Below, piece by piece: positions 17,356 to 21,708 of a stretch of 64,000 nucleotides of DNA. Origin of the DNA: Fidelibacterota bacterium (GTDB taxonomy: Bacteria > Marinisomatota > Marinisomatia > Marinisomatales > S15-B10); assembly GCA_002715465.1 (NCBI GenBank), contig PAYY01000007.1, forward strand, positions 32,474 to 96,473, given 5' to 3'. Made by a program: the position numbers and the translations under genes. Each line of letters begins with the position of its first letter. Positions within the stretch are counted from its first letter, which is position 1. The notes beneath the pieces were generated by a model. That model was not told where the DNA came from and ran no database searches. It saw only the letters and a list, made by a program, of their open reading frames with translations.

Positions 17356-17363
17356 GTGGATAA
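17344..17363 (+). promoter_or_regulatory. Two perfect DnaA boxes over the dnaA start
   Basis: TGTGGATAA at 17344-17352 and again at 17355-17363; each is the exact complement of TTATCCACA. Their starts are 11 bases apart, one helical turn. The second box includes the GTG start codon of dnaA (17356-17358). DnaA binding here would be placed to repress its own expression; that is inference from known dnaA autoregulation. Confidence 0.85.
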
Positions 17364-18720
17364 AACAACTTTGACAGCTTCGGATCTTTGGTCCGCTGTT
17401 TCTACAGAAATTCGTTCAGTTCTTAATGAACAAACATATGCAACTTGGTTTGAACCAATTAGCGCTGTTGGTTTAGATGCCAAATCAATTACTTTAGAGG
17501 TTCCTAGTAAGTTTTATTATGAATGGATTGATCGTCATTATAGAAAAATGCTTTTATCAAAGATTAAAGCTATTTCAGGAAAAAAGTTAATTGTTCGTTA
17601 TAGTGTTGTTCTTGGAGAACCAGAGAAAAAAGAGACAAACGGTGATAATGCTATAGAAAAAAGTATAGACCCTAATGAGAGATTTTATGATAGTGGAAGC
17701 CGCTTAAACAAACGGTATACCTTTACCAGTTTTGTAGAAGGTTCAAACAATCAGCTAGCAAAAGCGGCTAGTGTTTCAGTGGCCGATTCACCAGGACAAA
17801 CCTCTTTTAACCCACTTGTTATATATGGAGGTGTAGGCTTAGGAAAGACTCATTTGCTGCAAGCAATAGGCAATAAAGTTTTAATAAGAAAACCTGCTCC
17901 AAAAGTTCATTATACAACTAGCGAAAAATTCACTCTGGATTTTATTTCCGCTATTCAAAATAACAATAGCTCAAACTTTTCAACAAGATATAGAAATGTT
18001 GATGTCTTGTTAGTTGATGATATACAGTTTTTGCAAAAGAAAGAACAAACACAAGAACAATTTTTTCATACTTTTAATGATTTATATCAACGAGGAAAGC
18101 AAGTAATCCTTACAATGGATAGACACCCCAGTGAATTATATGGTTTAAAAGATCGACTTTTGTCAAGGTTTCAATCAGGTCTTATTGTTGATGTTCAGGC
18201 ACCAAATTTAGAAACAAGGATTGCGATTCTTCAAAAAAAAGCAGCGGATGATAGTCTTGAAATACCTTTTGAAATTACAGAGCTTATCGCTACAAATGTT
18301 CGGGGAAATATTCGAGAGATGGAAGGAGCTTTAATAAAACTTTTAGCATATTCATCCCTTTCCCATACTGATATAACAATGTCGTTGGCTAAACGTGCTT
18401 TGAGAGAAACTTTGGGGCGGTCTGGTGCAAAAAGTGTGTCTATAGATGATGTTATACAGAGCGTTAGCGAATCCCTAGATGTACCAGAAAATAAATTAAT
18501 TGGAAGAGGTAGAAAAATGGAAGTTGCAAATGCTAGGCAGGTTGCAATGTATTTATCAAGGGAAGTTGTAGGCGCATCACTAGAAAATATCGGTTTACAT
18601 TTTGGAGGTAGAGACCATACAACAGTTATTCATGCTTGCCGTTCAGTAAAAGGAAAAATGAATAATAAATCAGATTTCCAACGCCAAGTAGATGGAATTC
18701 GATCTCAATTAGAATTTTAG
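17356..18720 (+). CDS. dnaA: Chromosomal replication initiator DnaA
   Basis: A 454-residue AAA+ initiator that binds DnaA boxes and melts oriC. Domain I starts LWSAVSTEIRSVLNEQTYATWF. Domain III has Walker A GGVGLGKTHLLQAIGN (from about residue 158), Walker B VDVLLVDDIQFL, and the arginine-finger region around KDRLLSRFQSGL. Domain IV carries the signature GGRDHTTVIHAC from about residue 417. The start is GTG at 17356; no in-frame ATG lies near and no strong ribosome-binding site is seen. The start codon is embedded in a DnaA box. Confidence 0.98.
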   Translation: MDKTTLTASDLWSAVSTEIRSVLNEQTYATWFEPISAVGLDAKSITLEVPSKFYYEWIDRHYRKMLLSKIKAISGKKLIVRYSVVLGEPEKKETNGDNAIEKSIDPNERFYDSGSRLNKRYTFTSFVEGSNNQLAKAASVSVADSPGQTSFNPLVIYGGVGLGKTHLLQAIGNKVLIRKPAPKVHYTTSEKFTLDFISAIQNNNSSNFSTRYRNVDVLLVDDIQFLQKKEQTQEQFFHTFNDLYQRGKQVILTMDRHPSELYGLKDRLLSRFQSGLIVDVQAPNLETRIAILQKKAADDSLEIPFEITELIATNVRGNIREMEGALIKLLAYSSLSHTDITMSLAKRALRETLGRSGAKSVSIDDVIQSVSESLDVPENKLIGRGRKMEVANARQVAMYLSREVVGASLENIGLHFGGRDHTTVIHACRSVKGKMNNKSDFQRQVDGIRSQLEF

Positions 18721-18769
18721 TTTTACTTAATATGTTTGATAAGTGTATATTTATACGCTGTTTGTACCC

Positions 18770-19381
18770 ATGTTTTTAACTAAAAGACAAAAAGAAATAG
18801 TAGACTACCTTCGTGGTTATATATCACGATATGGATATGCACCAACTTTTGATGAAATAGCTTCAAGCTTTGGATTTACTTCCAAAGGAACAGTTTATAA
18901 ACATATTCGTGCTCTTAAAGAAAAAGGTGTTATTCATCATCAATGGAATAAAGCCAGATCAATTGAATTTACCCCAGAAAAAACATCAATAAATAATCTT
19001 GAAATTTTAGGCGTAGTTTCAGCGGGTAAACCAATAGAAGCAATTCCTAATCCAGAAGCTATTGAGGTTCCATCTTCTTTTTTGCAAAGAGGAAAGCACT
19101 ATGTTTTAAAAGTATTCGGAGATTCTATGATAGAGGATCATATACAAAGTGGAGATTTTGTTATTATCCAAGAAAAAGTAGAAGCATTAAACGGACAAAC
19201 AGTTGTAGCTCTTATTGATCATAATGAAGTTACAATAAAAAAGTTTTTTCGAAGAGATGACAAGATCGAACTACATCCCGCTAATAGATACATGGAACCA
19301 ATGATATATAATTTAGACAAAGTAAAAATCCAAGGAATTGTCGTAGGTGTAATGCGAAAGTATAATGGAGATTATAGATGA
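18770..19381 (+). CDS. lexA: LexA repressor (SOS response)
   Basis: About 203 residues from ATG 18770; a GTG at 18743 would add nine residues. An N-terminal winged helix (TKRQKEIVDYLRGYISRYGY, then APTFDEIASSFG) binds DNA. The C-terminal S24 peptidase domain has the self-cleavage site A85-G86 (GVVSAGKP), catalytic S119 (FGDSM) and K157 (EVTIKK), all at the usual spacing. It represses DNA-damage genes until RecA filaments trigger autocleavage. Its TGA stop overlaps the ATG of the next gene (ATGA), so the peroxiredoxin may be translationally coupled and perhaps damage-responsive. Confidence 0.96.
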   Translation: MFLTKRQKEIVDYLRGYISRYGYAPTFDEIASSFGFTSKGTVYKHIRALKEKGVIHHQWNKARSIEFTPEKTSINNLEILGVVSAGKPIEAIPNPEAIEVPSSFLQRGKHYVLKVFGDSMIEDHIQSGDFVIIQEKVEALNGQTVVALIDHNEVTIKKFFRRDDKIELHPANRYMEPMIYNLDKVKIQGIVVGVMRKYNGDYR

Positions 19382-19830
19382 TAAAAATAGGACAAAGTCT
19401 AGGAAAAGTAAATTTCTTAAATCAAGATGGAGAAACCATAAGGCTTAATTCAAAAAAACGGAAAGTCATTTTTTGTTATCCAAAAGCAAATACACCTGGA
19501 TGAACCATTGAAGCAACTGAGTTTCAGTTGCTAATAGAACGATTTCATAAAAAAGACATAGAAGTATATGGTCTATCCGCTGATCCCGAAAGTTTAATAA
19601 AAAAATTTTCTCAAAAATGCAATTTCTCTTTTTCACTTCTTACTGATCCTGACCATACACAGCTTAAAAAGTTAGGTGCTTGGGGAAAGAAAAAAATGTA
19701 TGGCAAAGAATATGAAGGAATAATTAGAAGTACATATGTTCTTGATGAAGAAAACATAATTACACATGTTTTTCCAAAGGTGTCAGTTAAAGGTCATGCT
19801 GAAGAAGTAGCAAAAACACTTAATATATAA
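19378..19830 (+). CDS. bcp: Selenocysteine-containing peroxiredoxin (BCP/PrxQ family), TGA read as Sec42
   Basis: A 150-residue thioredoxin-fold peroxidase if the TGA at 19501-19503 is read through; otherwise translation ends after 41 residues. Before the TGA the frame reads KVIFCYPKANTPG and after it TIEATEFQLL, which is the PrxQ/BCP active site YPKA.TPGC with the peroxidatic cysteine replaced by the TGA. Downstream, LLTDPDHTQLKKLGAWGKK and the GIIRSTYVLDEE stretch align with E. coli Bcp. A hairpin right after the TGA fits a bacterial SECIS. The second cysteine five residues on in E. coli Bcp is absent; C81 is a possible resolving residue. The ATG at 19378 overlaps the lexA stop and has GGAG upstream. 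Other genes here use TGA as an ordinary stop, including lexA. Confidence 0.88.
19512..19532 (+). promoter_or_regulatory. Candidate bacterial SECIS element
   Basis: Perfect 9-bp stem AGCAACTGA / TCAGTTGCT (19512-19520 with 19524-19532) and loop GTT. The loop begins 17 bases after the TGA and its first base is G. This fits the published bacterial SECIS model: apical loop about 16-37 nt from the UGA, with a G in its first two positions. It lies inside the coding frame, as bacterial SECIS elements do. SelB binding is inferred. Confidence 0.8.
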
Positions 19831-19832
19831 AT

Positions 19833-20375
19833 ATGAGACTATTACCATCTCAGTCTTTGCTTCTGGTAGTTGATGTACAAGAAAAAATATTTTCGAGTAT
19901 TTTTGAAAAACAAAAGACTAAGAATAAAATATGTAGAATAATTGATGGAGCAATTACATTAAAAATTCCAATTATTTGGACCGAACAGTATCCAAAAGGT
20001 CTAGGCTCTACAATTAAAGATATTAAAACGAGAATGAAAGATAGAATGCTGTTTGAAAAAACAACATTTAGTTGTTTGCGAGATAATGAAATAGCTTTAG
20101 AATTAAAGGGTCAAAAAAGACAACAAATTCTTATTTGTGGAATTGAAACACATATTTGTATTTATCAAACAGTTCAAGATATAGTGTCTAATAATTTTCA
20201 AGCACATGTAATTGCAGATGCTGTAGGTTCTCGATATAAAACAGACCATGATTGTGGATTATTAAAAATAGGGAAATTAGGGGCTGAACTTACCACTTGT
20301 GAGACGGCGCTTTTTGAACTAGTAGCTGATTCGAAAAATATAAATTTCAAAGCTATTTCAAAAATAATAAAATAG
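19833..20375 (+). CDS. Isochorismatase-family cysteine hydrolase
   Basis: A 180-residue alpha/beta hydrolase of the isochorismatase-like superfamily. The triad is visible as D14 (LLLVVDVQEK), K76 (FEKTTFSC) and C109 (GIETHICI). The cis-peptide and C-terminal strand regions also fit. The C-terminal pattern is closer to YcaC-type and uncharacterised hydrolases than to true isochorismatases, and no siderophore genes are nearby. The substrate cannot be told from sequence. It starts two bases after the selenoprotein stop and probably belongs to the lexA transcript. Confidence 0.87.
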   Translation: MRLLPSQSLLLVVDVQEKIFSSIFEKQKTKNKICRIIDGAITLKIPIIWTEQYPKGLGSTIKDIKTRMKDRMLFEKTTFSCLRDNEIALELKGQKRQQILICGIETHICIYQTVQDIVSNNFQAHVIADAVGSRYKTDHDCGLLKIGKLGAELTTCETALFELVADSKNINFKAISKIIK

Positions 20376-20418
20376 GTTTTTTTAGAGACTGAACAAACCA
20401 ATCTTTAACTTTTATGAA

Positions 20419-21708
20419 ATGAAAAAACATCATTTTGAAATAATAAAAGAATCTGCTGGCATCACTGAATATCGCCATAAATTAAATAAACTTACAGTTT
20501 TGTTATTAGAAAAAAAATCTGCACCTGTAGTAACATTTATGGTAACATATATGGTTGGATCTCGTAATGAGGCAATTGGGTATACAGGATCTACACACTT
20601 ATTAGAACATCTTATGTTTAAAGGGTCTAATCGATTTAACAAAAACAATGGGAAAGCTATTTGGAATGTTTTACAAGATGTAGGGGCTATTATAAACGCC
20701 ACCACTTGGTTTGACAGAACAAACTATTTTGAACTATTGCCAAAGGAACATCTGCCAAAAGCTGTAGCAATAGAAGCGGATAGAATGAGGCATGCGTTTA
20801 TTAAAGATAAAGATAGAAAATCAGAAATGACTGTAGTAAGAAATGAGTTTGATCGTGGAGAGAATGATCCTTGGGAAGTTCTTGATAAAAATATTTGGGC
20901 AACGGCATATCAAGCACATCCTTATCATCATTCAACAATAGGTTGGCAATCCGATATAGAAAATGTACCAACGGAAAGATTAAAAAAATTTTATGATACA
21001 TATTATTGGCCAAACAATGCAACAGTATCAGTTATAGGTGATTTTGAAAAAAATGAAACATTAATTCTTTTAGAAAAAGAGTTTGGGACTATTCCAAAAG
21101 CATCTCATCCAATACCAGACGTATATACTTCAGAGCCTAAACAAGAGGGACCTAGAAGAGTAACAGTAAAACGTAATGGAGAAATACCTATTGTAGGAAT
21201 AGCACATAAAATTCCTGAAGGAACCAATAAAGATATTTTCCCTTTGCAACTATTAGGAAGAATTTTAGGCTATGGTAAGAACAGCAGGTTTTATAAACGA
21301 TTTATTGATTTAGGGAAAGCATCAGACATCAGTGTCTGGTCTTACCCTTTACATGATAATGGTTTGTTTATTTCCTATCTTTTTATTTCAGGAAATGATA
21401 CTTGCGAAGAAATTGAGAAAGAAATCTTAGAAGAATATTCATTAATTAAATCAAAAGGTGTTTCTGCTAAAGAACTCCAAAGAGCAAAGTCCCAAATTAG
21501 AGCTGAAACAGCCTTCTCAAGAGATGGAAGTTATTCTATTGCGAGTAATCTTAATGAAGCTATAGCTATTGGAAACTGGACTTTTTTTACAACCTATATT
21601 AAAGAAATAGAAAAAGTAACCAAAAATGATATTCAACGCGTTGCTCGGACATACCTTGTAGAAGATCAAAGTACTACGGGCTTTTTTGAAACTCTCCCAA
21701 AATTATAA
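20419..21708 (+). CDS. M16-family zinc metallopeptidase (catalytic subunit)
   Basis: A 429-residue pitrilysin-type protease. The inverted zinc motif HxxEH is H60-L-L-E63-H64 in GSTHLLEHLMFKG, and the downstream glutamate region is NEFDRGENDPWE. No signal peptide is evident, so it may be cytoplasmic, though M16 pairs in this type of bacterium are often periplasmic. It is followed by a second M16 protein without the metal motif. That is the usual heterodimeric arrangement, with one catalytic and one R/Y-bearing partner. The likely job is degradation of peptides; the substrate is unknown. Confidence 0.9.
   Translation: MKKHHFEIIKESAGITEYRHKLNKLTVLLLEKKSAPVVTFMVTYMVGSRNEAIGYTGSTHLLEHLMFKGSNRFNKNNGKAIWNVLQDVGAIINATTWFDRTNYFELLPKEHLPKAVAIEADRMRHAFIKDKDRKSEMTVVRNEFDRGENDPWEVLDKNIWATAYQAHPYHHSTIGWQSDIENVPTERLKKFYDTYYWPNNATVSVIGDFEKNETLILLEKEFGTIPKASHPIPDVYTSEPKQEGPRRVTVKRNGEIPIVGIAHKIPEGTNKDIFPLQLLGRILGYGKNSRFYKRFIDLGKASDISVWSYPLHDNGLFISYLFISGNDTCEEIEKEILEEYSLIKSKGVSAKELQRAKSQIRAETAFSRDGSYSIASNLNEAIAIGNWTFFTTYIKEIEKVTKNDIQRVARTYLVEDQSTTGFFETLPKL

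Follow-up and report, generated by a model that had tools for sequence, protein, structure and literature searches.

A predicted selenocysteine peroxiredoxin in a marine Neomarinimicrobiota-type bacterium

The stretch of DNA analysed here (64,000 nucleotides, hereafter the window) comes from a marine Neomarinimicrobiota-type bacterium and carries on its forward strand a gene for a PrxQ/BCP peroxiredoxin (prx, 19378..19830, 150 aa), in which an in-frame TGA (UGA) at 19501..19503 is the predicted selenocysteine (Sec) codon for residue 42, the peroxidatic position. We assign a probability of roughly 0.94 to the joint explanation that prx encodes a Sec-containing PrxQ/BCP peroxidase, that its UGA is decoded through a SECIS element and SelB, and that it is probably made from a message coupled to lexA.

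The frame 19378-19830 on the forward strand contains one internal stop, the TGA, and reads M...YPKANTPG-U-TIEATEF...NI followed by the terminal stop codon, with TPGU as the active-site motif (TPGC with U for C). When Cys was substituted for the TGA, Pfam placed AhpC-TSA across residues 5-130 as one stretch (E = 1.1e-24), and an alignment to solved PrxQ/BCP chains set residue 42 against the TPGCT Cys; both results bear out the first-pass annotation, which had located the TGA at the TPGC cysteine of a BCP/PrxQ frame. The protein combines PF00578 with TxxU, which is the definition of the Sec-Prx family of marine selenoproteomes. The best NCBIfam match was the BCP equivalog NF006960, yet its score of 120.4 bits fell below the cut-off of 140, and prx is therefore filed as a divergent PrxQ-fold relative and not as a BCP equivalog. 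The dN/dS ratio 3' of the TGA was 0.06-0.46 in the five of six pairs for which it was computable; 5' of the TGA, the L001/L089 pair gave 1.37 on few changes, a value that counts against the Sec reading. Under a rule asking for at least 15 residues before the TGA, at least 35 after it and little overlap with larger ORFs, four TGA read-throughs were present in the window, prx being the sole substantial one and the other three being frames of 58-65 residues, and no second selenoprotein of substance was found in the window under this rule. A scan of viral contigs with P0001 as query returned no relative, and a plasmid collection searched in distant mode with 18600-20800 as query returned no match.

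A conserved hairpin follows the TGA

Within the coding sequence, directly after the TGA, lies a bacterial-type SECIS hairpin (19512..19532, forward strand), AGCAACTGA-GTT-TCAGTTGCT, with a perfect 9-bp stem and a GUU loop 17 nt past the UGA. Bacterial SECIS elements obey a distance rule between the TGA and the stem-loop and have G at the start of the apical loop, as this hairpin does. The hairpin folded with z = -2.6, and equal stability was reached in 5 of 200 shuffles. Because, by a lax SECIS rule, a stem of at least 9 bp also follows 2.5% of all TGA triplets in the window (2357), hairpin geometry alone is weak, not decisive, evidence for a SECIS in this AT-rich DNA. Given the prx peptide, the hairpin is nevertheless out of the ordinary: among 2000 synonymous recodings, 2 had a stem as long and 11 a fold as stable.

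Across 10 related Sec sequences, the inner six pairs of the helix are intact in 59 of 60 cells, against 13 of 30 for the outer three, and the GUU loop is invariant. Three pairs displayed compensatory two-sided changes, a number that 1 of 500 shuffles matched. The covariation score over these sequences was higher than in any of the 500 shuffles or the six slid controls; the number of further pair types was no better than chance, with 471 of 500 shuffles reaching it. The window itself contributes one compensatory change (A-U versus G-C in the nine others), and L092 has a mismatch within the inner helix. The hairpin is missing from the Cys members L093 and L002, which have TGT. Searches against Rfam found no family at gathering score anywhere in the window, which counts against the SECIS reading. 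Collectively, the compensatory changes in the Sec members and the absence of the hairpin from the two Cys members support the earlier proposal of a hairpin with SECIS geometry directly after the TGA.

TGA and Cys codons among relatives

A protein search for prx gave 398 matches from 419 candidates, of which 120 were listed and 27 examined. Among these 27, Trp occupies position 42 in P0002, P0003, P0005-P0013, P0020 and P0021, and P0004, P0014, P0015, P0019, P0022 and P0042 start just past that position. P0008 is identical to L001 at 143 of 150 residues and P0020 to L095 at 144 of 150, and since the DNA of both loci has TGA at the Trp codon, P0008 and P0020 look like mis-translated selenoproteins in which TGA was read by another table; the Trp of the remaining proteins in this group probably arose from TGA in the same manner.

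In a genome-contig search, TGA was present at this codon in 11 of the 80 loci retained (the best 80 of 575). Thirteen of these best 80 loci belong to this phylum, nine with TGA and four with TGT or TGC, and the alternation for which the first-pass annotation had proposed aligning homologues does occur. The phylum search returned a prx match in 205 of 245 genomes, and among 30 fetched loci (L087-L116, four of which repeat loci from the genome-contig search) 25 had TGA and five a Cys codon. Some genomes of the phylum have several prx matches. The same TGA is present in nine of the nine lexA-linked relatives detected (L001, L087, L089-L092, L095-L097), whose proteins are 42-60% identical to that of the window.

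On a tree of 52 rows (the window, 39 phylum loci and 12 chosen outgroups, with the duplicates L088, L094, L102 and L112 left out), the window, nine TGA loci and two TGT loci formed one supported clade (12 rows, SH-aLRT 99), in which the Cys pair L093/L002 was nested within the Sec clade. The fewest Sec/Cys changes were six on this quick tree, in which 15 of 49 inner branches are drawn open. The clade's single Cys lineage lacks the hairpin, and the examined flanks of its prx gave no lexA match.

Genes for selenocysteine decoding in related genomes

Seven of the clade's nine TGA genomes (G001, G074, G075, G078, G079, G080 and G148) yielded the full set of selA, selB, tRNA-Sec and selD, while G073 yielded selA and selB only and G076 tRNA-Sec and selD only. 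One of the searches behind these counts scored 150 first-look candidates in eight of the nine genomes, including G073 (150 of 180). The tRNA-Sec of G001 has the anticodon TCA. One TGA was present in the SelD gene in 10 of 10 matches of one set and 9 of 9 of another. ARAGORN detected no tRNA in the window, and hence no tRNA-Sec within it. Since the Cys genomes G002, G012 and G071 retain all four genes, prx can have a Cys codon without the Sec machinery being lost; in the Cys genomes G007 and G009, no sel gene was found at the cut-offs. The TGA genomes G013 and G003 yielded only selD and only tRNA-Sec with selD, respectively.

Across the phylum, 177 of 245 genomes had a selA match at E 1e-60, and in 175 the match exceeded the curated cut-off. 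The gene was present in 84 of 96 genomes with TGA in the best prx match versus 30 of 54 without (Fisher P = 2e-5, ignoring relatedness), a classing that covers the best matches listed for 150 of the 205 matching genomes and was checked at codon level only in fetched loci. In the 12 of 96 TGA genomes where selA was not found, genome incompleteness is our guess.

The neighbourhood of prx and a candidate LexA operator

Immediately upstream of prx lies lexA, encoding the SOS repressor (18770..19381, forward strand; TIGR00498, 193.5 bits against a cut-off of 110.95), with an ATG start common to relatives. The lexA stop and the prx start overlap in an ATGA read from the sequence (19378..19381, forward strand). 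Further upstream is a predicted dnaA (17356..18720, forward strand), named from reading of its ORF and conserved at the same place in clade relatives with 68-91% tblastn identity, and the conserved downstream neighbour, assigned by PF00857 and synteny, is a gene for an isochorismatase-family hydrolase (19833..20375, forward strand). All nine TGA loci of the clade have dnaA and lexA upstream of prx and isochorismatase downstream. The ATGA junction between lexA and prx described in the first-pass annotation is real and common to six of ten Sec members, in the form of ATGA or GTGA (the window, L087 with GTGA, L001, L089, L090 and L091); in L092, L095, L096 and L097, lexA and prx are neighbours and do not overlap. 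In the Cys loci L093 and L002, prx adjoins dnaA, and the flanks examined contain no lexA match. Among the titles and abstracts listed in one open-licence library, no description was found of the conserved dnaA-lexA-prx-isochorismatase block with its lexA/prx overlap, nor did any of them deal with a lexA-prx unit or with the selenoproteins of this phylum.

Directly upstream of lexA, the window has a candidate LexA operator of the form RTAC-N7-GTAY, TTTATACGCTGTTTGTAC (18750..18767, forward strand), which is a lead only. By eye, RTAC-N7-GTAY precedes lexA in seven of nine relatives and is absent in L096 and L097. A longer operator pattern had two to four matches in each of five genomes, one each at lexA, against 0-2 for the reversed control; this pattern was built from the lexA sites and matches at lexA by construction, and its expected number is no evidence. 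Three of the eight matches away from lexA precede a DnaE2-like ORF with a PHP domain (an operator-like site with two mismatches in G001, G075 and G076, three of the five genomes), L124 and L125 lie between two ORFs, L126 and L130 lie next to or within a long frame of the opposite strand, and L131 is the remaining match. A search with the G075 copy of the DnaE2-like ORF, the only copy searched, gave error-prone DNA polymerase as the best family, at a score far under the cut-off owing to the ORF's length of just 256 residues. At L127-L129, the 256-aa DnaE2/PHP-like ORF ends early, which would fit either a polymerase gene that has been split or a PHP protein standing alone. None of eight recA loci had the candidate operator within 200 bases of the gene; the RecA search had no match in G071 (a Cys genome) or G148 (a Sec genome), and G002 lay outside that search.

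Structural model and proposed catalytic route

An AlphaFold2 model of prx, built with Cys for Sec on a 28-row alignment, had a pLDDT of 94.9 and placed residue 42 in the first turn of a predicted helix 40-51 and Cys81 at the end of a predicted helix 71-81; the closest solved folds were BCP/PrxQ. PrxQ/BCP enzymes have their resolving Cys at CP+5 or in helix alpha-3, and 1-Cys forms exist. In prx, no Cys is present at residue 47 (CP+5) or at residue 78 (the alpha-3 place). Six of ten Sec members have both Cys33 and Cys81, Cys81 is absent in four of ten, and the L092 and L095 proteins contain no Cys at all and would need an external thiol.

Judging from the sequence and the genomes of relatives, we propose that the UGA at codon 42, together with the SECIS hairpin, would be decoded as Sec by SelB and Sec-tRNA(Sec). 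The Sec, in the first turn of helix alpha-2 (TPGU), would attack peroxide and form a selenenic acid, which may then be reduced via Cys81 (in alpha-3, one turn past the known place of the PrxQ resolving Cys) or by an external thiol. The stop/start overlap suggests that prx is probably translated from a lexA-prx(-isochorismatase) message, with co-transcription and translational coupling to lexA. Through this probable coupling, the amount of peroxidase may follow that of LexA and so rise when DNA is damaged.

Alternative explanations

Since the TGA recurs in nine of nine lexA-linked relatives, the inner six hairpin pairs, some with compensatory changes, are intact in 59 of 60 cells and the TGT members lack the hairpin, we regard a sequencing error, a pseudogene and a TGA read as Trp as very unlikely on sequence grounds. 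An ordinary Cys peroxiredoxin in which a sequencing or assembly error had turned TGT or TGC into TGA would need a change of one base, and Cys relatives exist; however, the relatives with TGA at the same codon come from other genomes, the hairpin covaries, and P0004, which is 97% identical, starts only past the codon, as expected with a stop there, all of which leaves such an error highly improbable. It is hardly credible, too, that prx is a decaying pseudogene or that only its C-terminal 100-aa ORF (19528-19830) is made. A plain ORF list does give the downstream part only, and P0004 and P0015 are such parts, but both parts match as one AhpC-TSA stretch, the C-terminal fragment is without the active site, and the TGA has been kept across lexA-linked members with 42-60% identity to the window. 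That the organism reads TGA as tryptophan (table 4) has in its favour the Trp at position 42 of the metagenome proteins P0002, P0003, P0005-P0013, P0020 and P0021, yet for two of these, P0008 and P0020, the near-identical loci L001 and L095 have TGA in their DNA, and the examined loci have TGA, TGT or TGC at this codon and no TGG. Moreover, 12 of 55 window ORFs (greedy ORFs of at least 90 residues) end in TGA, only prx has a substantial in-frame TGA, in-frame TGA codons at Trp positions across many genes did not appear in the window, and G001 has a tRNA-Sec with the anticodon TCA; the chance that table 4 applies is negligible.

Decoding of the UGA as Sec is thus the preferred reading of prx, and the weight of the lexA link is a separate matter. 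An SOS-regulated lexA-prx operon is a lead, not a result, and we consider it rather unlikely, though not implausible, that lexA and the Sec-peroxidase gene form one translationally coupled, LexA-autorepressed operon in this Neomarinimicrobiota lineage, through which DNA damage would raise selenium-dependent peroxide removal. There is a nearly even chance that the Sec peroxidase is real and its link to lexA one of gene order only, with prx having its own promoter or standing outside SOS regulation. This would accord with the neighbours that do not overlap in L092 and L095-L097, with the lack of a site before lexA in L096 and L097, with the eight of eight recA loci without a candidate operator within 200 bases, and with the Cys members, whose prx keeps its place next to dnaA and has no lexA match in the flanks examined. 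The stop/start overlap in six of ten Sec members and the similar site, with two mismatches, before the DnaE2-like ORF in three of five genomes argue instead for a functional link. Given the lexA-prx arrangement, a connection of the SOS response to selenium-dependent peroxide defence can be put directly to the test.

Comparison with known systems

SAR406 is an older name of this phylum. Three SAR406 genomes with an 'orphan' selD are given in Table 1 of a 2016 survey (PMC5029168), for which incomplete genomes would be a simple explanation. The present analysis assigns members of an abundant family of marine selenoproteins, along with the decoding genes, to a named uncultured phylum, and illustrates that in public protein sets such genes are truncated at the TGA or given a Trp.

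Within the phylum, prx resembles a second Sec-PrxQ lineage (TPGUTxEGQGFRD; L011, L017 and L024 among others), whose peroxidatic codon is likewise TGA, followed by a hairpin. That lineage differs in forming a separate supported clade (SH-aLRT 98), in having a hairpin of the GGGTTC-CGTGAT-GAACTC type and in lacking a lexA or isochorismatase match in the flanks examined. Among solved structures, the PrxQ proteins of Xanthomonas campestris and Xylella fastidiosa (3gkk, 3gkm, 5iiz and 3ixr) share the fold (TM to query 0.82-0.93) and the peroxidatic position with prx; they use Cys there, whereas Sec is predicted in the window. In Xanthomonas PrxQ, we take C84 to be the resolving Cys. This alpha-3 residue (C84S mutant, 5iph) aligns with Ser78 of the window protein, and Cys81 lies three residues further on.

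Selenocysteine peroxiredoxins were described in the first-pass annotation as known in a few bacteria and in marine metagenomes; 'a few' understates their frequency in marine bacteria, as the GOS survey already counts 253 sequences (PMC2398784). In the Sargasso Sea set, the Sec-peroxiredoxins (TxxU, COG1225) numbered 43 genes and were the second most abundant family of known selenoproteins (PMC1088965). A 2026 review names Sec-peroxiredoxins as a known family (PMC13188914); its reference 83 concerns PrxU of Eubacterium acidaminophilum, a bacterial selenocysteine peroxiredoxin, as prx is predicted to be. The Sargasso and GOS proteins share with prx the PF00578 domain, the TPGU motif as an instance of TxxU, an origin in marine bacteria and a SECIS after the TGA; the available excerpts of both papers leave this gene neighbourhood unmentioned (PMC1088965, PMC2398784), and the window prx belongs to a lexA-linked Neomarinimicrobiota clade. 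Sec-peroxiredoxins as such are therefore already known, and what is unusual here is the conserved neighbourhood dnaA-lexA-prx-isochorismatase.
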